From NCBI GenBank assembly GCA_020854105.1, contig JADZGB010000043.1, positions 186,001 to 250,000 of the forward strand: a stretch of 64,000 nucleotides of DNA, read 5' to 3'. This DNA is from Burkholderiales bacterium. GTDB lineage: Bacteria > Pseudomonadota > Gammaproteobacteria > Burkholderiales > SHXO01. The notes under the pieces are model-generated. The model was not told where the DNA came from. It saw nothing but the letters and a program-made list of their open reading frames with translations, and did no database searches. Below are positions 188 through 13,863 of the stretch, one piece after another (positions within the stretch are counted from its first letter, which is position 1; each line of letters begins with the position of its first letter). The translations under genes were made by a program, and so were the position numbers.

Positions 188-1195
188 TCACCCTGTGGAT
201 CGTTGGTTGCCGAAGAACGCGGCCTCTGCCGCAGGCGGCAGTCCCGCTCCGCACGCTCTCGCCCGCTGCAACACCTGCCAGAAGTGGCGGTACGAGGCGC
301 GGTCGTGCATCTGGCCATCGTGCTTGATCGGACCCCAGCCCGCGGCCTGGCCCGCGAGCAGGATGTCGGCGCTGCGGCCGATCAGGGACAGCTCGGGCGT
401 CATCGCACGCACGATCGGTTCAATCTGGTTCGGATGGATGCTAACCATGCGCAGAAAACCGTACTCGCGCCTTGCGCGCGAGGCATCACGGTAGGCCGCC
501 TCCGGGTCACCGGTGTCCATGCAGATGGCGTGACAGGGGACGATGCCATGGGCGAGCGCCGCGGCAGCGAGGTCGGCCTTCGCGCGGATGATCAGCCGGT
601 GCTCGAACTGCCCGGGCGAGCGCATGGCTGACTCGTCGAGTGCGCCGCCGTGACTGCTGACGAAGTCGAGCAGTCCGAAGTCGAGCGTCTCCACCCAGGG
701 CAGGGCAGCGATGGACCAGGCGTCGTGCATCGCCCCGTGCGTTTCCATGAGGACGTGGACGGGGATCGCACGGCGAAGACCGAAGTGCAGTACGCGCGAC
801 CCGACGTAGCCGATGGCCGCTTCGGCTCGTGCCGCGGAAGCGACCTTCGGGATGGTCAGGTAGGCCAGACGCTCGCCCGCACGCGAGAGGAGCACGTCGA
901 TGTCATGGCTCCAGCTCGGATGATCCGGATCGTGCACCCGCACGCCGACCCGGCCGAAACGATTGTCCGCAGAAGCGACCAGCCCGGCGATCATCTCGAC
1001 GTGGGCAGCCTCGCTTCCGACCGGCGCCCCATCCTCGCAGTCACAGGTGAGGTCGAACACCGGGCCCAGCCGCTGCTGCAACTCGAGCGCCTTGCGCATC
1101 TGGCGCTCGTTCCCCGCGAAATGCTCGCACGGGGGCAGCGACGGAAGGGCTGTCCCGCCCGTCAGCGCGTCGTGCGGATGAATCGCGTCAGCCAT
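188..1195 (-). CDS. HpcH/HpaI aldolase / citrate lyase beta-type CoA-ester lyase
   Basis: 335 residues. The protein has the CitE/malyl-CoA-lyase fold signature: an acidic metal motif CDCEDGAP near residue 52, conserved Arg/His barrel-strand motifs ([33 protein letters not shown]) and a [12 protein letters not shown] motif near the C-terminus. Enzymes of this family cleave or make C-C bonds in 3-hydroxyacyl-CoA esters such as malyl-CoA, beta-methylmalyl-CoA or citryl-CoA, using Mg2+. It sits between mdh and prpB with gaps of 17 and 8 bp, so it is co-transcribed with malate and methylisocitrate metabolism. The exact substrate cannot be read from sequence; beta-methylmalyl-CoA or malyl-CoA is plausible from context. 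Confidence 0.85.
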
Positions 1196-1212: not shown

Positions 1213-2202
1213 CTACTTCAGCATGCTGCTGACGGCGTCGCGCTCTTCCAGAAGCTCCTTGTGAGTGGCGTCCATGCGCGCGCGGCTGAACGCACTGATC
1301 TCGATTCCCTGGACGATCGAGTAGGTACCGTTGGCGCAGGTGACCGGATAACCGTAGATGACGCCCTCGGGAATGCCATAGCTGCCGTCGGACGGAACAC
1401 CCATGCTGACCCAGTCACCGCTGCGGGTGCCCCTGACCCAGTCGCGCACGTGGTCGATCGCCGCATTGGCGGCACTGGCCGCGGAGGACGCGCCACGGGC
1501 ATCGATGATCGCCGCGCCGCGCTTCTGCACGGTCGGGATGAAGCCGGTCTCGAGCCAAGGCTGGTCGTTGATCATGGGCCACAGCTTCTGACCGTCTGAT
1601 TGCGCCTGGAACAGGTCGGGGTACTGGGTGGCGGAGTGGTTGCCCCAGATGGTGACCCTGGTAATGCCGCCCACCGGGCGCTTGACCCTGGCGGCGGCCT
1701 GGGAGATGGCGCGGTTGTGATCCAGACGCATCATCGCGGTGAAATTGGCGGGCGCGAGTCCGGGCGCCATCTTCATCGCGATGTACGCATTGGTGTTCGC
1801 CGGATTGCCCACCACCAGCACCTTGACCCCGCGACTGGCCGATGCGTCCAGTGCACGCCCCTGTCCGACGAAGATCTTGGCGTTCTCCATCAGGAGGTCC
1901 TTGCGTTCCATGCCTGGGCCGCGGGGCCGCGCGCCGACCAGAAGGGCGATGTCGGCGTCCCTGAATGCCACCTTGGCATCGTCGGTGGCGACCATGCCTG
2001 CCAGCAGCGGAAAGGCGCAGTCGTCCAGTTCCATCATCACGCCTGTCAGGGCCTTCTGCGCCTTCTCGTTTGGGATCTCCAGGAGCTGGAGGATCACCGG
2101 CTGGTCGGCGCCGAGCATCTCTCCGGCGGCGATCCGGAACAGGAGGCTGTAGCCGATCTGGCCGGCGGCGCCGGTGACTGCTACGCGGACAGGTGCTTTC
2201 AT
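1213..2202 (-). CDS. mdh: malate dehydrogenase
   Basis: 329 residues, the length usual for betaproteobacterial NAD-dependent malate dehydrogenase. The N-terminal Rossmann motif is [17 protein letters not shown]; the catalytic His is in [13 protein letters not shown]; substrate arginines occur in [14 protein letters not shown]. It catalyses malate to oxaloacetate, closing the TCA cycle and feeding gltA on the opposite strand. It is the first gene of the operon with the CoA-ester lyase and prpB, and is transcribed divergently from gntR-sdh. The promoter and operator-like array lie at 2289-2349. Confidence 0.97.
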
Positions 2203-2323: not shown

Positions 2324-2349
2324 TCTTATGTCTTATATAAGATATCTTA
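2324..2349. promoter_or_regulatory. operator-like array of four TCTTA/TAAGA half-sites
   Basis: TCTTA starts at 2324, 2331 and 2345 and its complement TAAGA at 2338: four half-sites exactly 7 bp apart. They form two overlapping perfect 12-bp palindromes, TCTTATATAAGA (2331-2342) and TAAGATATCTTA (2338-2349). The array lies between divergent mdh and gntR, the usual site for an autoregulated GntR-family protein. Binding by the adjacent GntR protein is inference from position and symmetry. Confidence 0.7.
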
Positions 2350-2391: not shown

Positions 2392-3150
2392 ATGAAAACA
2401 GCCGCACTCCCACGCCAGCAGCCGCCGGGCAAATCGCCCGCATTCCAGCCGCTGTACCGGCAGATCAAGGCGCTCATTACGCAGAGCCTGGTCACCGGTG
2501 AATGGCGGCCCGGCGAGCCCATTCCCAGCGAGATCGAACTGGCCGGGCGCTACAGCGTGAGCCAGGGAACGGTGCGCAAGGCGGTGGGCGAACTGGCCGA
2601 GGAACGGGTGCTGGTGCGACAGCAGGGCAAAGGCACCTTCGTGGCGACTTACGCCGAGGAGCGCAGCCAGTTTCCCTTCCTGAGCATAAACCCGGATGCC
2701 GAGCCCATGCGTGAGCTCGGCGCGGAGCTGCTCGGCCTCGAGCGCATGCGCGACCCCGTGTCGGCGCGCCTCCTCGGAATGAACGCGACCGCCAGCGTGT
2801 TCGTCCTCAGGCGGATCCTGAAGATCAACGAGCGTCCGGCCTGCTACGAGGAGATCCGCCTGCCCGCGGCCCGTTTCCGGGGGCTGACAACTGGCGTGGT
2901 CGAGCAGCACGAGTGCATGCTCTATAGCATGTACGAGGCACGCTTCGGCGTACGGATGCTGCAGGCCGAGGAGCGGGTGAAGGCGGTCGCTGCCCCGCCC
3001 GAGGTCGCCGCTGCCCTGCACCGGGTGCCGGGAACGCCGATGTTGCAGATCGAACGCGTGGCATTCACCTACGGCCGTGAGCCGTCCGAGCTGCGGCGCT
3101 GCTACTGCGACAGTCAGGAACATCATTACCGTAACGCCATTACCGGCTGA
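2392..3150 (+). CDS. GntR-family (HutC/UTRA) transcriptional regulator of the TCA gene cluster
   Basis: 252 residues from the ATG at 2392; an in-frame GTG at 2371 would add seven. Residues about 20-90 form the winged helix-turn-helix (PSEIELAGRYSVSQGTVRKA, then a wing QQGKGTFVA). The rest is a UTRA effector domain typical of the HutC subfamily (VLRRILKINERPACYEEIRL). It directly precedes sdhC and is divergent from mdh, so it likely controls both units through the half-site array at 2324-2349. The effector is unknown; a TCA or methylcitrate intermediate would fit. No convincing Shine-Dalgarno precedes either start, so the start is moderately certain. Confidence 0.88.
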   Translation: MKTAALPRQQPPGKSPAFQPLYRQIKALITQSLVTGEWRPGEPIPSEIELAGRYSVSQGTVRKAVGELAEERVLVRQQGKGTFVATYAEERSQFPFLSINPDAEPMRELGAELLGLERMRDPVSARLLGMNATASVFVLRRILKINERPACYEEIRLPAARFRGLTTGVVEQHECMLYSMYEARFGVRMLQAEERVKAVAAPPEVAAALHRVPGTPMLQIERVAFTYGREPSELRRCYCDSQEHHYRNAITG

Positions 3151-3181: not shown

Positions 3182-3556
3182 ATGACCAGACCAAGACCCA
3201 AATACCTCGACCTGATCCGCATCCGGCAGCCAGTGCCGGCAGTGGTGTCGATCCTGCATCGCATCAGCGGCTTCGGGCTGTTCCTGTTCCTGCCCTTCCT
3301 GCTCTACCTCCTGCATTCCAGCCTCGCCTCCCCGGACAGCTACGTGCGCTACCGGGCGGCAATCGACAATCCGCTGGTCAAGATCATCCTGCTCGGCCTG
3401 TTGTGGGCCTACCTGCACCACTTCTTCGCCGGCATCCGCTTCCTGTTCCTGGACGTGCACATCGGCGTCGCGCTGCAACCGGCGCGTCGGACCAGCCGGA
3501 TCGTGCTGGTCGTGAGCCTGGTCCTCACCGTGATTCTGGGGGTGTTCCTATGGTGA
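3182..3556 (+). CDS. sdhC: succinate dehydrogenase cytochrome b556 subunit
   Basis: 124 residues with three hydrophobic segments. [17 protein letters not shown] is the family signature at the first membrane helix, and the His pair in [16 protein letters not shown] supplies the likely haem b ligand. Together with SdhD it anchors the SdhAB catalytic dimer in the inner membrane and passes electrons to ubiquinone. The ATG at 3182 is chosen because GGAG lies 6 bases upstream; a GTG four codons earlier is too close to the stronger GGAGGA. The end overlaps sdhD by seven bases (ATGGTGA). Confidence 0.95.
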
Positions 3557-3897
3557 AGCGCGTGATCGTAGGGGCCCATTACGGCCTGCGCGACTGGCTG
3601 GTCCAGCGCATCACGGCGGTAGTCATGGTCCTGTACACGTTCCTGATTTTGGGCATCCTGCTGATGGCCCCGCCGAAGCACTACCTGGCCTGGAAGAACC
3701 TGTTCGCCAACCAGGCGATGAAGCTCGCCACCTTCCTGTTCCTGGCCAGCATCTTCGCGCATGCATGGGTGGGCATGCGCAACATCCTGATGGACTACGT
3801 GAAGCCGACGGGATGGCGGCTCGTCCTGGAGGCCGCGGTCGCGCTGGCGCTGTTCGCCTATGCGGGCTGGGCGCTTCAGATCCTGTGGAGCGTGTAA
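3550..3897 (+). CDS. sdhD: succinate dehydrogenase membrane anchor subunit
   Basis: 115 residues, three predicted membrane helices (starting near residues 20, 58 and 90). [16 protein letters not shown] is the conserved SdhD stretch containing the quinone/haem-site residues. Start and stop overlap its neighbours (ATGGTGA with sdhC, TAATG with sdhA), so the four subunits are translationally coupled. It forms the quinone-reducing membrane anchor of complex II. Confidence 0.95.
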
Positions 3898-5660
3898 TGG
3901 CAATCGCGATTCGAAAGTTCGACGCAGTCATCGTCGGGGCCGGAGGGGCCGGCATGCGGGCCGCCCTGCAACTGGCGGAAGCCGGTTTCAAGGTCGCGGT
4001 CGTGTCCAAGGTTTTCCCGACCCGGTCGCACACGGTCGCCGCCCAGGGCGGCATCGGCGCGGCACTGGGCAACATGGGCGAGGATAGCTGGCTGTGGCAC
4101 ATGTACGACACCATCAAGGGTTCCGATTACCTCGGGGACCAGGATGCGATCGAGTTCATGTGCCGCATGGCGCCGCAGGTCGTGCTCGAACTGGAGCACT
4201 TCGGCATGCCGTTCGACCGCAACGACAACGGCACGGTCTACCAGCGTCCCTTCGGCGGCCATTCGCAGAACTTCGGCGAGCGCCCCGTGCAGCGCAGCTG
4301 CTGTGCGGCGGACCGCACCGGCCATGCCATGCTGCACACCCTGTATCAGCGCAACGTGCGAGCCAACACCCATTTCTTCGTCGAGTGGATGGCACTGGAC
4401 CTGGTGCGCGATGCCGCAGGGCACGTGCTCGGCGTCACGGCGCTCGAGATGGAGACCGGCGAGATCTACCTGATGCAGGCGCGCGCGACCTTGTTCGCCA
4501 CCGGTGGCGCAGGGCGCATCTTCGCCGCCAGCACGAACGCCTTCATCAACACCGGAGACGGGCTCGGCATGGCCGCGCGCGCCGGCATTCCACTGGAGGA
4601 CATGGAGTTCTGGCAGTTCCATCCGACCGGCGTGGCCGGTGCCGGTGTACTGATCACCGAGGGTGTGCGCGGCGAGGGCGGGTATCTGCTGAACAGGAAC
4701 GGCGAGCGCTTCATGGAGCGCTATGCGCCGACCATGAAGGATCTGGCCAGCCGCGACGTCGTTTCCCGTGCGATGGCCACCGAGATCAAGGAGGGCCGGG
4801 GCTGCGGACCCGAAGCCGATCACGTGCTGCTCAAGCTCGATCACCTCGGCGTCGAGGTGGTGGAGAAGCGCCTGCCCGGCATCCGCGAGATCGCCCGGAA
4901 GTTCGCCAATGTCGACCCGGTCAAGCAACCCATTCCGGTAGTGCCGACCGCGCACTACCAGATGGGCGGCATCCCGACCAATTACCACGGAGAGGTGGTG
5001 GCGCCCCGGTCCGGCAATCCGGAAGCCGTCGTGCCCGGCTTCTACGCCGCCGGTGAATGCGCATGCGCCTCGGTACACGGCGCCAACCGCCTGGGCACCA
5101 ATTCGCTCACCGACCTGCTGGTGTTCGGGAAGGCCAGCGGAGAGCGCATGGCGCAGTTCCTGCGCGAGAACCCGGAACACAGGGATCTGCCGTCCGATGC
5201 CGCCGACCGCACGCTGATGCGCCTGGACCGTCTGGAGAGCCAGCGCAATGGAGAGAGCGTCCATCAGGTTGGGGCGGACATGCGCCGCACCATGCAGGCA
5301 CACTGCGGCGTGTTCCGTTTCCCCGACCTGCTGGTCGAGGGCGTGAGGAAGATCCTCGAGATCGCCGAGCGCGCCCAGCGCACGGAGATCAAGGACCACA
5401 GCAAGGTATTCAATACCGCGCGTACCGAGGCGCTGGAACTGGACAATCTGATCGAGGTTGCCCGCGCGACCATGATCTCGGCGGAGGCACGCAAGGAGAG
5501 CCGTGGCGCGCACGACCGCGAGGACTTCGCCAAGCGCGATGACGAGAACTGGCTCAAGCACACCCTGTGGTTCAAGGATGACGACCGGCTGGAGTACAAG
5601 CCGGTGCATCTGAAACCGCTCACCGCCGCGACGTTCGAGCCGAAGGTGCGGACTTACTGA
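3897..5660 (+). CDS. sdhA: succinate dehydrogenase flavoprotein subunit
   Basis: 587 residues, family length. The FAD-binding Rossmann motif is [20 protein letters not shown]; covalent FAD attaches to the His in [14 protein letters not shown]. Substrate residues are in [17 protein letters not shown] and [18 protein letters not shown]. It oxidises succinate to fumarate. The start overlaps the sdhD stop as TAATG. Flavinylation is assisted by SdhE, encoded at 6501. A 104-bp gap with an imperfect inverted repeat separates it from sdhB, unlike the tight coupling upstream. Confidence 0.98.
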
Positions 5661-5672
5661 AAACCGTTTCGT

Positions 5673-5740
5673 CACAGAGGGCATAGGGGTCACCGAGTCG
5701 GTCCCCTCTCCTGGTCACTGGATTCTTCGTGCCCTCCGTG
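5673..5740. repeat. imperfect inverted repeat between sdhA and sdhB
   Basis: CACAGAGGGCAT (5673-5684) is matched in inverted orientation by GTGCCCTCCGTG (5729-5740), 10 of 12 positions pairing. Inside it AGGGG (5685-5689) can pair with CCCCT (5703-5707), with ACC/GGT closing a short inner loop. CACGGAGGGCAC-like motifs resemble small dispersed repeats seen in environmental proteobacterial genomes. A transcript hairpin affecting sdhA/sdhB stoichiometry is possible but not shown. Confidence 0.45.
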
Positions 5741-5764
5741 TCGTCCGTGGCAAAGGACTTAATC

Positions 5765-6460
5765 ATGCACTTCCGAATCTACCGCTACGATCCCGACAAG
5801 GACGCGCAGCCGCGCATGCAGGATTACCAGGTCGACCTGGAGGCGAGCGATCGCATGCTCCTGGACGCCCTGGTGCGCATCAAGTCGATGGACGATTCGC
5901 TGGCGCTGCGCCGCTCCTGTCGCGAGGGCGTGTGCGGATCGGATGCGATGAACATCAACGGCAAGAACGGCCTGGCGTGCATCACCCGCCTGAGCGACCT
6001 GAAGGAGCCGGTCGAGATCCGGCCGCTGCCGGGGCTGCCGGTGATCCGCGATCTGATCGTGGACATGTCGCAGTTCTTCAAGCAGTACCACTCGATCAAG
6101 CCCTATCTGGTCAACAACGATCCGGCGCCGGAGAAGGAGCGGTTGCAGACCCCGGCCGAGCGTGAGGAACTCGATGGCCTGTACGAGTGCATCCTGTGCG
6201 CCTGTTGCAGCACCGCCTGTCCCTCGTTCTGGTGGAACCCGGACAAGTTCGTCGGCCCTGCCGGCCTGCTCCAGGCCTACCGGTTTCTGGCCGACACGCG
6301 CGATCAGGCAACCAGCGAGCGCCTCGATAATCTGGAGGATCCCTACCGGCTGTTCCGCTGCCATTCCATCATGAATTGCGTTGACGTCTGCCCGAAGGGC
6401 CTCAACCCCACCAAGGCGATCGGCAAGATCAAGGATCTGCTGGTTCGCAGGACCGCCTGA
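5765..6460 (+). CDS. sdhB: succinate dehydrogenase iron-sulfur subunit
   Basis: 231 residues. Cysteine motifs for all three clusters are visible: CREGVCGSDAMNING plus a later Cys for [2Fe-2S], CILCACCSTACPSFWWNPD for [4Fe-4S], and CHSIMNCVDVCPKGLNP completing [3Fe-4S]. It carries electrons from SdhA FAD to the quinone site. The ATG at 5765 has AAAGGA 7 bases upstream; an upstream in-frame ATG at 5729 has no ribosome site and lies in the repeat region. Confidence 0.97.
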   Translation: MHFRIYRYDPDKDAQPRMQDYQVDLEASDRMLLDALVRIKSMDDSLALRRSCREGVCGSDAMNINGKNGLACITRLSDLKEPVEIRPLPGLPVIRDLIVDMSQFFKQYHSIKPYLVNNDPAPEKERLQTPAEREELDGLYECILCACCSTACPSFWWNPDKFVGPAGLLQAYRFLADTRDQATSERLDNLEDPYRLFRCHSIMNCVDVCPKGLNPTKAIGKIKDLLVRRTA

Positions 6461-6500
6461 TCCAGGCCGGCATGGCAACCGGTCTTCTGGCGAGAAAGCG

Positions 6501-6737
6501 ATGAGCGAGGTCGATCGCATCCGCTGGCATTGCCGGCGGGGTCTGCTGGAACTCGATATCGTGCTGGCCCGTTTTCTAGACCGGCATCTCGACGACCTCG
6601 ACCGGATCGAACGCGAGGCCTTCAAGAGCCTCCTGATGCATTCCGATAATGACCTCTGGGACATGATTTCCGGGCGTGCCGAACCTCCGCCGGAAGGGGT
6701 GGAAGCGGGCGTTCTGGAACTGCTCCGGAACGTCTGA
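6501..6737 (+). CDS. sdhE: succinate dehydrogenase assembly factor (FAD flavinylation factor)
   Basis: 78 residues, the expected size of the SdhE/CptB (YgfY, SdhAF2) family. The family motif RRGLLELD occurs near residue 10, followed by acidic helices (DIVLARFLDRHLDDLD) and the SDNDLWDMISG segment. SdhE promotes covalent FAD attachment to SdhA, and its place directly after sdhB fits. The gap of 40 bp to sdhB and 83 bp to gltA suggests it is read in the sdh transcript. Confidence 0.93.
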   Translation: MSEVDRIRWHCRRGLLELDIVLARFLDRHLDDLDRIEREAFKSLLMHSDNDLWDMISGRAEPPPEGVEAGVLELLRNV

Positions 6738-6739
6738 TG

Positions 6740-6820
6740 TGCGAACGCACAATTCCTGGCCTAACCCCATAAACTTCCTATAGCATTGGGAATTTTACGA
6801 TTCCCAGGGTGGAGCAACCC
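6740..6820 (+). promoter_or_regulatory. gltA leader with successive inverted repeats over the ribosome site
   Basis: Three dyads follow one another: TGTGCG-AA-CGCACA (about 6739-6752), TGGGAAT-tttacg-ATTCCCA (6787-6806, 7-bp stem), and GGGT-ggagca-ACCC (6807-6820), whose loop contains the GGAG ribosome site of gltA. The last two can stack as one RNA structure ending at the start codon. No strong -35/-10 pair is recognisable. Confidence 0.45.
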
Positions 6821-8122
6821 ATGACACAGCAGCGCACGGCAACGATCAACTTCAACGACGGCACGCCGACCCTGGAACTGCCGATTCTGGCCGGCACGGT
6901 CGGACCCGACGTGGTCGATATCCGCCCGCTGTACGGCAAGACCGGGAAGTTCACGTACGACCCCGGCTTCATGTCCACCGCCTCCTGCAAGTCCGCCATC
7001 ACCTACATCGACGGCGACAACGGTATCCTGCTCTATCGCGGTTATCCGATCGAGCAACTGGCGCAGCACTGCGACTTCCTGGAGGTATGCCACCTCCTGC
7101 TGAAGGGCGAACTGCCCAAGGCAGCCGAGAAGAAGGAATGGGACGACCGCATCCGCAAGCACACCATGGTGCACGAGCAGCTGGCACGCTTCTACAGCGG
7201 CTTCCGGCGCGACGCGCACCCGATGGCCGTGATGGTCGGCGTGGTCGGCGCCCTGTCTGCCTTCTATCACGACAGCACCGACATCAATGACCCCGAGCAT
7301 CGCGAGATCTCCGCGATCCGCCTGCTGGCGAAGGTGCCCACCATCGCCGCGATGTCCTACAAGTACAACGTCGGCCAGCCCTTCATGCACCCGCGCAACA
7401 GCCTGAACTACGTGGAGAACTTCCTCCACATGATGTTCGGCACGCCATGCGAGGAGTACAGGCCGAATCCGGTGCTGGTGCGCGCCCTGGATCGCATCCT
7501 GATCCTGCACGCCGATCACGAACAGAACGCCTCCACCTCCACCGTGCGCCTGGCCGGGTCCTCGGGCGCCAATCCCTTCGCCTGCATTGCAGCTGGCATC
7601 GCCTGTCTCTGGGGACCCGCGCACGGCGGGGCAAACGAAGCCTGTCTGACCATGCTCGAGGAAATCGGCGACGTGTCGCGCATCGGACAGTACATCGCGC
7701 GGGCCAAGGACAAGAACGACGGCTTCCGCCTGATGGGCTTCGGCCACCGCGTGTACAAGCATTACGATCCGCGCGCGAAGCTCATGAGAGAGACGTGCCA
7801 CGAAGTCCTCGCCGAACTGGGACTACAGAACGACCGGCTGTTCAAGCTTGCCATGGAGCTGGAACGGATCGCCCTCGAAGACGACTACTTCGTCGACAAG
7901 AAGCTCTACCCCAACGTGGACTTCTACTCGGGGATCGTCCAGCGCGCGATGGGCATCCCGACCAGCATGTTCACCGCCATCTTCGCGCTGGCCCGTACGG
8001 TCGGCTGGGTGGCACAGTGGAACGAGATGATCAGCGACCCGGAGCAGAAGATCGGCCGTCCGCGGCAGCTGTTCACCGGCTCGCCCGAGCGCAACGTGGT
8101 GCCGATCGCCAGGCGCGGATAG
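6821..8122 (+). CDS. gltA: citrate synthase (type II, hexameric form)
   Basis: 433 residues. Active-site motifs are present: [12 protein letters not shown], the His of [32 protein letters not shown], and the loop [18 protein letters not shown] with the CoA-binding residues. It condenses oxaloacetate and acetyl-CoA and may also use propionyl-CoA weakly; a dedicated prpC is not in the window. The ATG at 6821 is preferred over an in-frame GTG at 6809 because GGAG lies 6 bases before it. It follows the sdh genes and precedes sucA. Confidence 0.97.
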
Positions 8123-8182
8123 GACAGCCGACAGGCCCGCGGCGGCGGGCAAGCATACAACCTCCAGTCGAGAAGGGGCCCC

Positions 8183-11026
8183 ATGGCGGCGCTGCTGAAG
8201 GAATACCTGGGAACATCCTACCTGTTCGGAGCCAACGCTCCGTTCATCGAGGAGCTCTACGAGACGTATCTGTCCGATCCGGATTCGGTACCTCAGGAGT
8301 GGCGGCGCTACTTCGATCAGCTTCAGCAGCTTCCGGGTGCAGCCGATGTCGCACACGAGCCGATCCGCCAATCGTTCGTGAAGCTGGTCAAGGCACCGCG
8401 ACAGGTTGCCGCCGATGCCGCAACGCCCTCCGTGGCCGCTGCCGCGAAGAAGCAGGTGTGGGTACTGCAGCTGGCCAACAACTACCGCCGCATGGGGTTG
8501 CGGCACGCGAACCTCGATCCGCTCAAGCGTTCCGAGAAGCCCGACGTGCCCGAGCTCGATCCGTCGTTCTACGGGCTCGAGGAATCCGACATGGAGCAGG
8601 TGTTCAACACCGCGTCGGTATTCGGTCCGGACAAGATGCCGCTGCGCGAGATCGTGCGTGCGCTGCGAGAGACCTACTGCGGCACCATCGGTACGGAGTT
8701 CTGGTTCATCGCGGACAGCGCGCAGCGCCGCTGGATCCAGCAGCGCCTCGAAGCCATCCGCTCGCAGCCGAACTATTCGAGCGACTTCAAGCGTTTCATC
8801 CTGGAGCGACTGACCGCCGCCGAGACCTTGGAGAAGTACCTGCATACGCGCTACGTCGGCCAGAAGCGCTTCTCCCTGGAAGGCGGGGACACGCTCATTC
8901 CGCTGCTCGATCACCTGCTGCAGCAGGCGGGCGAGAAGGGCGTGCAGGAGGCCGTGATCGGGATGGCGCACCGGGGACGGCTGAACGTCCTGGTAAACAC
9001 CATGGGCAAGATGCCCAAGGAGCTGTTCTCCGAGTTCGAGGGCAAGCACGCCGATCATCTTCCGTCGGGCGACGTGAAGTACCACATGGGCTTCTCGTCC
9101 GATATCAACACCCCGGGCGGCCCCATGCATCTGTCGCTCGCCTTCAACCCCTCGCACCTCGAGATCGTCAATCCGGTGGTGGAGGGTTCGGTGCGCGCGC
9201 GCCAGCACCGGCGCAAGGATCGCGAGGGCAGGCAGGTTCTGCCGGTCCTGATTCACGGCGACGCCGCGGTCGCGGGGCAGGGCGTGGTCATGGAGACGCT
9301 CAACCTGTCGCAGACCCGGGGCTATCGCACGGGCGGTACCGTGCATATCGTGGTGAACAACCAGATCGGCTTCACCACCTCGGACGTGCGCGACACCCGC
9401 TCGACGCTGTACTGCACCGACGTCATGAAGATGGTCGAGGCACCGGTGTTCCACGTCAATGCGGACGACCCGGAGGCGGTGTGCCTGGTAACGGAGATCG
9501 CGCTCGATTTCCGCACGCAGTTCCAGAAGGACGTCGTCATCGACCTCGTGTGCTTCCGCCGGCATGGACACAACGAGCAGGACGAGCCGATGGTCACGCA
9601 GCCGCTCATGTACAAGAGCGTGAGCGCACATCCGGGAACCCGGCGGCTGTATGCGGACCGCCTGGTGACCCAGGGCATCATCCGTGCCGAGGAAGCCGAC
9701 GAGATGGTGCAGACCTACCGTGGCACGCTCGAACAGGGCTATCACACCAACAAGAACGTCCTGACCAACTTCAATCCGCCGTATGCGGTGGACTGGAGCC
9801 GATTCAAGGGCAGCCGCTGGACCGATCCCTGCACCACGGCCGTGCCGCCGAACGATCTGCAGGCGCTGGGCGGGAAGCTCATCACCGTGCCCGGTGGCTT
9901 CAAGCTGCACTCGCGCGTGGAGAAGGTCATCGCCGACCGCAGGCAGATGATCCTGGGCAAGCTGCCACTGGACTGGGGCATGGCGGAGAACCTGGCCTAT
10001 GCCGCGCTGATCAAGGCCGGATATGGCGTGCGCCTGTCCGGGCAGGACACCGGCCGCGGCACGTTCTTCCATCGCCATGCCGTGCTTCACGACCAGGCAC
10101 GGGAACGCTGGGATGCAGGCAACCACATCCCGCTGCAGCACATCGCCGAGAACCAGCCCGACTTCGTCGCGATCGACTCCGTCCTGTCCGAGGAGGCGGT
10201 GCTCGGGTTCGAGTACGGCTACGCCACCGCCGAGCCGAACGAGCTGGTCGTGTGGGAGGCGCAGTTCGGCGACTTCGCGAATGGCGCACAGGTGGTCATC
10301 GACCAGTTCATCGCCTCGGGCGAAGTGAAGTGGGGGCGGCTGTGCGGGCTCGTCCTCATGCTGCCGCACGGCTACGAAGGCCAGGGGCCGGAGCATTCCT
10401 CGGCGCGCCTGGAGCGCTTCCTGCAACTGTGTGCGGACTACAACATGCAGGTCGTGGTGCCCTCCACGCCGGCTCAGATGTTCCATGTGCTGTGCCGGCA
10501 GATGCTGCGGCCGTTCCGCAAGCCCCTGGTCATCATGAGTCCGAAGAGCATGCTGCGCCACAAGGAGTCGGTATCCAGCCTGGAGGACCTGTCCGCCGGG
10601 GCGTTCCAGCCGGTGATCGGAGAGAGTGACGACATCGATCAGAGCAAGGTACGGCGGGTGGTGTTCTGCAGTGGAAAGGTGTACTACGACCTGCGCGCGG
10701 CGCGCCGCGAACGAGGCATGCAGGATGTCGCCATCGTGCGCATCGAACAGCTCTATCCCTTCCCGCACGACGACTACAAGGCGCAACTCGCGAAGTACCC
10801 GGACGCCCGGCAGGTGGTCTGGTGTCAGGAGGAACCGGGCAACCAGGGCGCCTGGCACCGCATACAGCACTACCTGCTGCGGCATCTGCCCGCGCACCAG
10901 AAGCTGGCCTACGCCTTGCGTCCGTCCTCCGCCTCGCCGGCCGTCGGTTATCTGGCCTTGCACAACGAGCAGCAGAAGGCGGTAATCGAAGCGGCTCTGG
11001 TCGGCACGCAACACAACGACGACTAG
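8183..11026 (+). CDS. sucA: 2-oxoglutarate dehydrogenase E1 component
   Basis: 947 residues, full length. The N-terminal TSYLFGANAPFIEELYE segment is the E2-binding part. The core has GMAHRGRLNVLVNTMGK and a thiamine-diphosphate region (VLIHGDAAVAGQGVVMETLN); the C-terminal half has LMLPHGYEGQGPEHSSARLE and MSPKSMLRHKESVSSLED. It decarboxylates 2-oxoglutarate and passes the succinyl group to the E2 lipoyl domain. Spacing to sucB is 50 bp. A GC-rich hairpin GCCCGC-ggcg-GCGGGC (8135-8150) lies in the 60-bp gap after gltA. Confidence 0.98.
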   Translation: MAALLKEYLGTSYLFGANAPFIEELYETYLSDPDSVPQEWRRYFDQLQQLPGAADVAHEPIRQSFVKLVKAPRQVAADAATPSVAAAAKKQVWVLQLANNYRRMGLRHANLDPLKRSEKPDVPELDPSFYGLEESDMEQVFNTASVFGPDKMPLREIVRALRETYCGTIGTEFWFIADSAQRRWIQQRLEAIRSQPNYSSDFKRFILERLTAAETLEKYLHTRYVGQKRFSLEGGDTLIPLLDHLLQQAGEKGVQEAVIGMAHRGRLNVLVNTMGKMPKELFSEFEGKHADHLPSGDVKYHMGFSSDINTPGGPMHLSLAFNPSHLEIVNPVVEGSVRARQHRRKDREGRQVLPVLIHGDAAVAGQGVVMETLNLSQTRGYRTGGTVHIVVNNQIGFTTSDVRDTRSTLYCTDVMKMVEAPVFHVNADDPEAVCLVTEIALDFRTQFQKDVVIDLVCFRRHGHNEQDEPMVTQPLMYKSVSAHPGTRRLYADRLVTQGIIRAEEADEMVQTYRGTLEQGYHTNKNVLTNFNPPYAVDWSRFKGSRWTDPCTTAVPPNDLQALGGKLITVPGGFKLHSRVEKVIADRRQMILGKLPLDWGMAENLAYAALIKAGYGVRLSGQDTGRGTFFHRHAVLHDQARERWDAGNHIPLQHIAENQPDFVAIDSVLSEEAVLGFEYGYATAEPNELVVWEAQFGDFANGAQVVIDQFIASGEVKWGRLCGLVLMLPHGYEGQGPEHSSARLERFLQLCADYNMQVVVPSTPAQMFHVLCRQMLRPFRKPLVIMSPKSMLRHKESVSSLEDLSAGAFQPVIGESDDIDQSKVRRVVFCSGKVYYDLRAARRERGMQDVAIVRIEQLYPFPHDDYKAQLAKYPDARQVVWCQEEPGNQGAWHRIQHYLLRHLPAHQKLAYALRPSSASPAVGYLALHNEQQKAVIEAALVGTQHNDD

Positions 11027-11076
11027 CCGCTCGGCCGGGCCGACAGCATCGAAGCGAATAGCGAACGGAGAAACGC

Positions 11077-12324
11077 ATGCTGGTTGAAGTCAGGGTTCCG
11101 CAGCTTTCGGAATCGGTTTCCGAGGCAACGCTTCTGACCTGGCACAAGAAGCCGGGAGAATACGTGCAACGCGACGAGAACCTCATCGACATCGAGACGG
11201 ACAAGGTGGTCCTGGAGTTGCCGGCGCCGGAAAGCGGCGTCCTGACCCGCATCGACAAGCCCGACGGGGGGACGGTCGTCAGCAACGAGCTGATTGCCAC
11301 CATCGACACCGAAGCCAGGGCGACTGCCCAGCCGGCTGCCGCCAAGGGCGCAGAAAAGCCGGCGGCGCCCGTCGCGGCCGTCGCCGCGCCGACGCCTGTC
11401 AAGGCGCCATCCTCGGCCTCGGCCGGCAGCCACGGCACGGAGAGCATCGTCATGCCGGCGGCGCGCAAGCTTGCCGCGGAGAAGAACGTCGACCTCGCCG
11501 CCATCCAGGGCAGCGGCCGCGGCGGCCGCATCACCAAGGAAGACGTGGTCGCGCAGATCGCCAGGCCGGCTTCGAAACCGGCACCGGTTGCGCCTCCGGT
11601 GGACGTCGGGCAGCTGCTCGGCGACCGTCCGGAGCAACGCGTCCCGATGTCCCGTCTGCGGCAGCGGGTCGCGGAACGCCTGGTCCAATCCCAGTCCACG
11701 GCTGCCATCCTCACCACGTTCAACGAGGTGAACATGCAGCCGGTGATGGAGATGCGCAAGAAGTACCAGGAGCGCTTCGAGAAGGAACACGGCGTGCGCC
11801 TGGGCTTCATGTCGTTCTTCGTGAAGGCGGCCGTCCATGCGCTCAGGAAGTACCCGCTGGTGAACGCCTCGGTGGACGGCAACGACATCGTCTACCACGG
11901 GTATTTCGACATCGGCATCGCGGTGGGCAGTCCGCGCGGCCTGGTGGTGCCGATCCTGCGCAATGCCGATCAGATGTCGCTGGCGGATATCGAGAAGCAG
12001 ATTGCCGATTTCGGCAAGCGCGCACAGGACGGCAAGCTCTCGATCGAGGAGCTGACCGGCGGCACGTTCTCCATTTCCAACGGCGGCGTGTTCGGTTCGA
12101 TGCTGTCCACGCCGATCATCAATCCGCCCCAGAGCGCGATCCTGGGTGTGCACGCGACCAAGGAACGCCCGGTGGTCGAGAACGGGCAGATCGTGATCCG
12201 GCCCATGAACTACCTCGCTTTATCCTATGATCACCGCATCATCGATGGCCGCGAGGCGGTGCTCAGCCTGGTGGCGATGAAGGACGCGCTGGAGGATCCG
12301 GCGCGGCTGCTGCTGGATATCTGA
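11077..12324 (+). CDS. sucB: dihydrolipoyllysine-residue succinyltransferase (2-oxoglutarate dehydrogenase E2)
   Basis: 415 residues. Residues 1-76 form one lipoyl domain with the lipoylated Lys in [16 protein letters not shown]. An Ala/Pro-rich linker (about 80-115) follows, then an E1/E3-binding domain ([32 protein letters not shown]). The remainder is the catalytic acyltransferase domain ending with the active-site [15 protein letters not shown] second Ala/Pro linker separates the last two. It transfers succinyl to CoA. It lies between sucA and lpdA in complex order. Confidence 0.98.
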
Positions 12325-12432
12325 CGGCCGTGATTCGCCCCGCGTGACTCGCCTGCGGCGCATGAACGAAGCGCGCGGCATCGGCGATCGCGGGAAGAAT
12401 GAATCACGGATCGAGAGTCACGACAAGAGACC

Positions 12433-13863
12433 ATGACCCAACAATTCGACGTGGCAGTGATCGGCGCGGGACCCGGCGGATATACCGCCGCGATCCGCGC
12501 GGCGCAGCTCGGCTTCAAGACCGTGTGCATCGACGACTGGAAGAACACCCAGGGCAATCCCAGCCTGGGCGGCACCTGCCTGAACGTCGGCTGCATCCCG
12601 TCGAAGGCGCTGCTGGAATCCTCCGAAAATTACGAGCGCGCCCTTCACAAGTTCGCCGATCACGGCATCCGCACCAAGGGTGTGAGCGTCGACATCGCGG
12701 CGATGCTGGCACGCAAGGACAAGATCGTCGATACCTTCACCGGCTCCATCGCCCTGCTGTTCAAGAAGAACAAGGTGGCGTCGCTGCACGGCCGGGGAAG
12801 TTTCGTGTCGGCCGGGGAGCGTTTCACTCTGCAGGTCAGGGACGGCGAGCGTGTCGAGGAGATCGAGGCGACGCACGTGATCATCGCCACCGGTTCGGTG
12901 GCACGCCAGCTTCCCGGCATAGCGCTCGACGGCGAGCGCGTGCTGGACAACGTCGGCGCCCTGTCGATGACCGAGATTCCAAGGAAGCTGGGCGTGGTGG
13001 GCGCCGGGGTCATCGGCCTGGAGATGGGCAGTGTGTGGCGTCGCCTGGGGTCGGAGGTCGCCATTCTGGAAGCCCTGCCGTCCTTCCTGCCGGCGGTGGA
13101 CGAGCAGATCGCCAAGGAGGCGTTCCGGGTATTCAACGGACCGCTCGATCTGAAGATCCACACGGGCGTGAGGATCGCCGACGTGAAGGCCGGAAAGAAG
13201 TCGGTGGCCGTGAGCTACGCGGACCGCGACGGCACCACCCACAATGTCGAGTTCGACAAGCTGATCATTGCCATCGGGCGCGTGCCGAACACCGCCGGCC
13301 TGAACAGCGACGCCATCGGGCTGCGGATCGACGCTCGCGGCTACATCGAGGTGGACGAGCACAACCACACCAGCGTGCCGAACGTCTACGCGATCGGCGA
13401 CGTGGTGCGCGGACCGATGCTGGCGCACAAATCCTCGGAGGAGGGCGTTGCCGTGGCAGAAACCATCGCCGGGGAGGCGAGCCACGTCAACATGGACACG
13501 ATTCCCTGGGTCATCTACACCTCGCCCGAGATCGCCTGGGTGGGCAAGACCGAGCAGCAGCTCAAATCGGAAGGCATTCCGTATCGTGCCGGACGATTCC
13601 CGTTCATCGCCAGCGGCCGCGCGCGGGCACTGGGCGAAACCGCGGGCTTCACCAAGATGCTGGCCCATGCGGAAACCGACCGCATTCTCGGCGTCCACAT
13701 CATCGGCCCGTACGCCTCCGAACTGATTGCCGAGGCCGTGGTCGCGATGGAGTTCGGCGCCAGCTCCGAGGATATCGCGCGCATCGTGCACGCCCATCCG
13801 ACCTTGTCGGAAGCGATGCACGAGGCCGCGCTGGGCGTGCACAAGCGCACCCTGAACATCTGA
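12433..13863 (+). CDS. lpdA: dihydrolipoyl dehydrogenase (E3)
   Basis: 476 residues. FAD-binding VIGAGPGGYTAAIRAAQLG at the N-terminus, the redox disulfide in GGTCLNVGCIPSKALLESSE, a NAD-binding GVVGAGVIGLEMGSVW near residue 190, and the dimerisation-domain catalytic His-Glu in HAHPTLSEAMHEAAL. It reoxidises dihydrolipoamide of SucB. The gene ends 31 bp before zapE. It lies in the sucAB operon, so it probably serves mainly the oxoglutarate complex; other E3 genes may exist elsewhere. Confidence 0.97.
   Translation: MTQQFDVAVIGAGPGGYTAAIRAAQLGFKTVCIDDWKNTQGNPSLGGTCLNVGCIPSKALLESSENYERALHKFADHGIRTKGVSVDIAAMLARKDKIVDTFTGSIALLFKKNKVASLHGRGSFVSAGERFTLQVRDGERVEEIEATHVIIATGSVARQLPGIALDGERVLDNVGALSMTEIPRKLGVVGAGVIGLEMGSVWRRLGSEVAILEALPSFLPAVDEQIAKEAFRVFNGPLDLKIHTGVRIADVKAGKKSVAVSYADRDGTTHNVEFDKLIIAIGRVPNTAGLNSDAIGLRIDARGYIEVDEHNHTSVPNVYAIGDVVRGPMLAHKSSEEGVAVAETIAGEASHVNMDTIPWVIYTSPEIAWVGKTEQQLKSEGIPYRAGRFPFIASGRARALGETAGFTKMLAHAETDRILGVHIIGPYASELIAEAVVAMEFGASSEDIARIVHAHPTLSEAMHEAALGVHKRTLNI

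Follow-up and report, generated by a model that had tools for sequence, protein, structure and literature searches.

Our results suggest that the array of TCTTA and TAAGA boxes between mdh and the divergent GntR-type gene very probably serves as operator for the regulator encoded beside it, SdhR. The evidence, all of it read from sequence, comprises the array itself, its single copy in the genome, the way it is conserved and placed, and the promoter elements that flank it. Within the window (the whole stretch of DNA analysed, 64 kb), positions 2321-2351 read CGGTCTTATGTCTTATATAAGATATCTTAAC and carry TCTTA at 2324-2328, 2331-2335 and 2345-2349 and TAAGA at 2338-2342, with an exact period of 7 bp. 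These boxes form two perfect 12-bp palindromes, TCTTATATAAGA at 2331-2342 and TAAGATATCTTA at 2338-2349. The original prediction had described both the four half-sites in exact 7-bp register and the overlapping palindromes; each description is borne out, and the array is unique in the 4.07-Mb genome.

Such boxes are scarce in this GC-rich DNA. The window holds six TCTTA or TAAGA pentamers in total, four of them in the array, and the expected number of runs of four boxes at 7-bp spacing is about 5e-12 per 64-kb window. The three-box pattern TCTTANNTCTTANNTAAGA, searched with up to three mismatches, gave three matches, all inside the array, where 0.06 were expected. A scan of the 4.07-Mb genome for the palindrome, a check that had been proposed with the prediction, found only this copy of TCTTATATAAGA at zero or one mismatch. 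Single occurrences in the genome, again at the array, were also found for the direct repeat TCTTANNTCTTA and for TAAGANNTCTTA, the outward-facing pair; the reversed control for the latter gave one match. Three further core sites with two mismatches were set aside; the reversed control gives more of these (nine), and the three lie in or among mechanically called open reading frames, with no gene of the tricarboxylic acid (TCA) cycle recognised alongside.

SdhR was reportedly defined by Suvorova, Ravcheev and Gelfand in 2012 (J Bacteriol 194:3234). The motif published for this HutC-subfamily regulator is a 'palindrome with additional symmetry', TCTTATGTCTTATATAAGACATAAGA (PMC4494728), with which the array agrees at 22 of 26 bases and, over boxes 1 to 3, at 19 of 19. 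The core of the SdhR operator, formed by half-sites 2 and 3 and taken as the putative dimer site, is matched at 12 of 12 positions, and the outer half-site TCTTATG (plus strand, 2324-2330), a direct repeat lying 7 bp to the left of the core, is exact. The mismatch falls in box 4 (minus strand, 2345-2349), which is in register but reads TCTTA where the consensus has TAAGA; the symmetric right outer half-site, (CA)TAAGA, is absent here and TATCTTA stands in its place. The present site thus shares with the SdhR operator a HutC-subfamily regulator, the core, the left half-site, the 7-bp register and a succinate dehydrogenase neighbourhood, and differs from it in the inverted right outer box and in being the only site in its genome.

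The suggestion that such an array would be exceptional among GntR operators is not supported by this comparison, as the SdhR motif was already published and 23 GntR orthologous groups have been reported to carry additional half-sites at 7-12 nt from the centre of the palindrome (PMC4494728). The extra boxes of these other operators are weaker than the true half-sites, whereas in the present array, with its period of exactly 7 bp, the outer box matches the core boxes in strength. The NagQ and FarR operators of the HutC subfamily also use direct repeats, but these are described without a central palindrome (PMC4494728), while the SdhR site combines a palindrome with a direct repeat. In Neisseria, the GntR-like regulator NMB1563 affects the methylcitrate genes prpB-prpC, but this circuit works through the sRNA Bns1 (PMC4423775); as a different locus, it was rejected as a match. 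A literature search on GntR and methylcitrate found no paper containing the motif string. The array is a site of an already described kind, very probably an SdhR operator, in which only the flipped fourth box is unusual.

The gene at 2392-3150 (plus strand) encodes a protein of 252 aa with an N-terminal GntR helix-turn-helix (PF00392) and a C-terminal UTRA domain (PF07702). It is not HutC proper, scoring 103.5 bits against NCBIfam TIGR02018, for which the cut-off is 220. Orthology to SdhR was judged from similarity and synteny, and synteny and motif agree: the neighbourhood is of the SdhR type (mdh <- -> sdhR-sdhCDAB), and the operator is placed upstream of sdhR-sdhCDAB. Downstream of sdhR lies a cluster of sdhCDAB, gltA, sucA, sucB and lpd (3184-13863, plus strand), in which sdhD, sdhA and sdhB were assigned by Pfam and the remaining genes by place and translation. 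On the other side, mdh (1213-2202, minus strand) is the first gene of a divergent cluster that continues with citE-like, prpB, prpC, prpD and acnA genes, mostly outside the 64-kb window. The spacer therefore separates most genes of the oxidative TCA cycle from mdh and the methylcitrate cycle genes, and the earlier assignment of these genes to divergent TCA and mdh-methylcitrate operons was correct. The gene between mdh and prpB (188-1195, minus strand) is HpcH/HpaI family lyase-like and is kept there in many relatives; it has weak similarity to the itaconate C-C lyase RipC (45.9 bits, cut-off 375).

Features of the protein are also consistent with an operator of this form. In the recognition helix, Gln58 occupies the place that the G-contacting Arg45 holds in FadR, and 75 of 75 syntenic orthologues keep this residue. 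Position 48, which corresponds to Arg35 of FadR, carries a residue other than Arg in the orthologue types listed. We infer that these residues would fit an operator that departs from the usual GT-N4-AC spacing. The exact core is present in 31 of 41 genomes with an SdhR orthologue and in 3 of 19 without one (Fisher p = 2e-5; presence classes read by hand). Motif match, neighbourhood and this co-occurrence together make it very probable that the GntR protein at 2392 binds the array, as had been proposed. No binding or expression data for SdhR were found in the literature.

Relatives of the protein were gathered from genome contigs and whole genomes of the order, and 72 SdhR loci had mdh or sdh neighbours and a core matching at 10 or more of 12 positions; these were dereplicated to 40 for the half-site statistics. 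The motif is thus conserved in orthologous mdh/gntR spacers, as had been predicted, and the core hardly varies in front of SdhR orthologues. Of 160 genomes of the order, 84 have the core, compared with 15 for a reversed control pattern (hand-counted). Among the 40 loci, TCTTA at offset -7 has a mean of 3.58 matches out of 5 (shuffled null 1.34, sd 0.155) and TAAGA at +14 a mean of 2.77 (shuffled 1.35, sd 0.156), with no enrichment of half-sites at -14 or +21. At a threshold of four or more matches, the left TCTTA is present at 24 of the 40 loci, the right TAAGA at 13 and both at 5. The right TAAGA box hence belongs to the consensus without being present at every site, and the usual form of the operator is a core with a single outer box, more commonly the one facing mdh. 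A right TCTTA at +14 was found at only 2 of the 40 loci, one of which is the present locus. Positions 2343-2349 are identical (7/7) in an 86%-identical congener (L003/L084), in which the promoter spacers are about 57-72% identical; the fourth box is GCTTA in a second congener (G002), and nothing similar is present in a third (G001). The inverted fourth box is thus conserved only within the genus, a lineage feature whose role is uncertain.

What is new here is the position of the operator, which is enclosed by the conserved -35 boxes of two back-to-back promoters, both placed by consensus matching. On the minus strand, TTGACA (2313-2318) and TATGAT (2289-2294), separated by 18 bp, form a predicted mdh promoter scoring 11/12; both boxes are conserved, and transcription is predicted to start near 2282. 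On the plus strand, the predicted sdhR promoter (2352-2380) is the weaker of the two, yet its sequence and position are both conserved: its -35 box TGGACG (2352-2357; TGGACG or TAGACG in relatives) is followed after 17 bp by TAAAAA with an upstream TG, an extended -10 element (TGC TAAAAA, 2372-2380), with transcription predicted to start near 2387. Over the 40 loci, the mdh and sdhR promoters outscore shuffled flanks (Wilcoxon p 7e-10 and 4e-8). TATAAG at 2336-2341 was dropped as the -10 box of gntR, as the element further down is the conserved one. The predicted -35 boxes are 33 bp apart, a gap filled by the 26-bp array, whose edges lie 5 bp from that of mdh and 2 bp from that of sdhR. In relatives with the left outer box, the mdh -35 is 11-19 bp from the core, mostly 11-13, whereas in those that lack it this distance is often 3-6 bp (p = 0.004, present vs missing), as if the mdh -35 abuts the edge of the operator. 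The sdhR gene lacks a Shine-Dalgarno sequence, and only 11 nt separate the -10 box from the ATG (2375-2394; mostly 4-9 nt in relatives); a leaderless or nearly leaderless mRNA is therefore predicted.

In relatives, further core sites occur before aceA, aceB, icd, acnB, acs and prpE, which form one pathway group, and, less certainly, at dctP and hppA. The core is found just upstream of the predicted -35 at aceA and at most acnB loci, matching its position at mdh and sdhR, while at icd (L148, L167, L224, L168), acs (L159, L231) and hppA it lies just downstream of the predicted -10; the distance from core to -10 is similar at icd and acs. Core matches in one genome (G042; L170, L171) were not counted as targets, as they fall within or next to long repeated open reading frames. 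A 7-Mb relative (G158) has six exact cores (L204-L209), including those at mdh/sdhR, aceA and acnB, and has apparently expanded its regulon. In the present genome aceA and icd are divergent neighbours (L177/L179, contig C2, 238745-241732), and many relatives carry a core between them. A scan of this spacer for a degenerate site found no convincing SdhR site, the best match being 8/12; as any other core-like sequence in the genome also has two or more mismatches, the regulon here seems to be confined to one control region.

We consider it likely that the array acts as an SdhR operator from which both divergent promoters are repressed, and here we infer the binding of SdhR, repression rather than activation, and control by an effector. 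One SdhR dimer would occupy the core palindrome at 2331-2342, with a further subunit or a second dimer on the outer half-site at 2324-2328; in this genus, the inverted box at 2345-2349 might also be used. As the array lies between the two -35 boxes, bound SdhR could keep sigma and the C-terminal domain of alpha off both promoters. The mdh-prp-acn and sdhR-sdh-gltA-suc genes would then be repressed together, with sdhR autoregulated, until a metabolite binds the UTRA domain.

The proposed sign of this control calls for caution. Sites just upstream of a predicted -35 (mdh, sdhR, aceA, most acnB) are equally usual for activators, which counts against repression, and SdhR could instead be a dual regulator that activates from such sites (mdh, sdhR-sdh, aceA, acnB) and represses from those downstream of the -10 (icd, acs, hppA). 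Two classes of placement against predicted promoters do exist in relatives, and the operator's near edge in most cases falls immediately upstream of the mdh -35. However, growth on acetate needs acs as well as aceA, and the two would then receive opposite signs; as they should share one, a repressor at all sites is the simplest reading. A core that follows a predicted -10, as at icd, acs and hppA, is most naturally read as a site of repression. HutC-subfamily proteins are mostly repressors, and annotated repressors, DasR and YvoA, are among the solved full-length relatives. We regard a dual role as rather unlikely. A related scheme, a four-box lattice with one flippable box on which SdhR activates an abutting -35 and represses from behind a -10, is decidedly unlikely in our view; if true, one site between back-to-back promoters would set most of the TCA and methylcitrate cycles.

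The geometry of binding is also open to other readings. In the original prediction, two dimers on 2331-2342 and 2338-2349 would share or compete for the box at 2338 and so produce a sharp switch. In its favour, neither palindrome has a mismatch, the nearest congener keeps the fourth box and TAAGANNTCTTA occurs nowhere else in the genome; outside the genus, however, the outward-facing palindrome shows no conservation, and an AT-rich promoter flank could hold the fourth box by chance. As a functional unit the overlapping palindromes are not supported: the second, which is not the general recognition unit, rests on the inverted box, whose orientation is opposite to that of the consensus (TAAGA at 13 and TCTTA at 2 of the 40 loci), and we judge a switch of this kind very doubtful. 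With its AT-rich composition and its position upstream of each -35 box, the array could be taken for an UP-like element or an RNA structure; a reading with no protein operator is, however, extremely improbable given the exact register, the near-invariance of the core across many families, its co-occurrence with SdhR and its recurrence at other metabolic promoters in relatives. An RNA structure is further opposed by the predicted transcripts, which begin outside the array, such that it would not be transcribed from these promoters.

In summary, we tie a lone GntR gene to a named and widely conserved regulator of central metabolism and give exact promoter and operator coordinates for SdhR. While relatives have several sites, this lineage has a regulon apparently limited to one divergent control region. 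That single region carries most of the TCA and methylcitrate genes.
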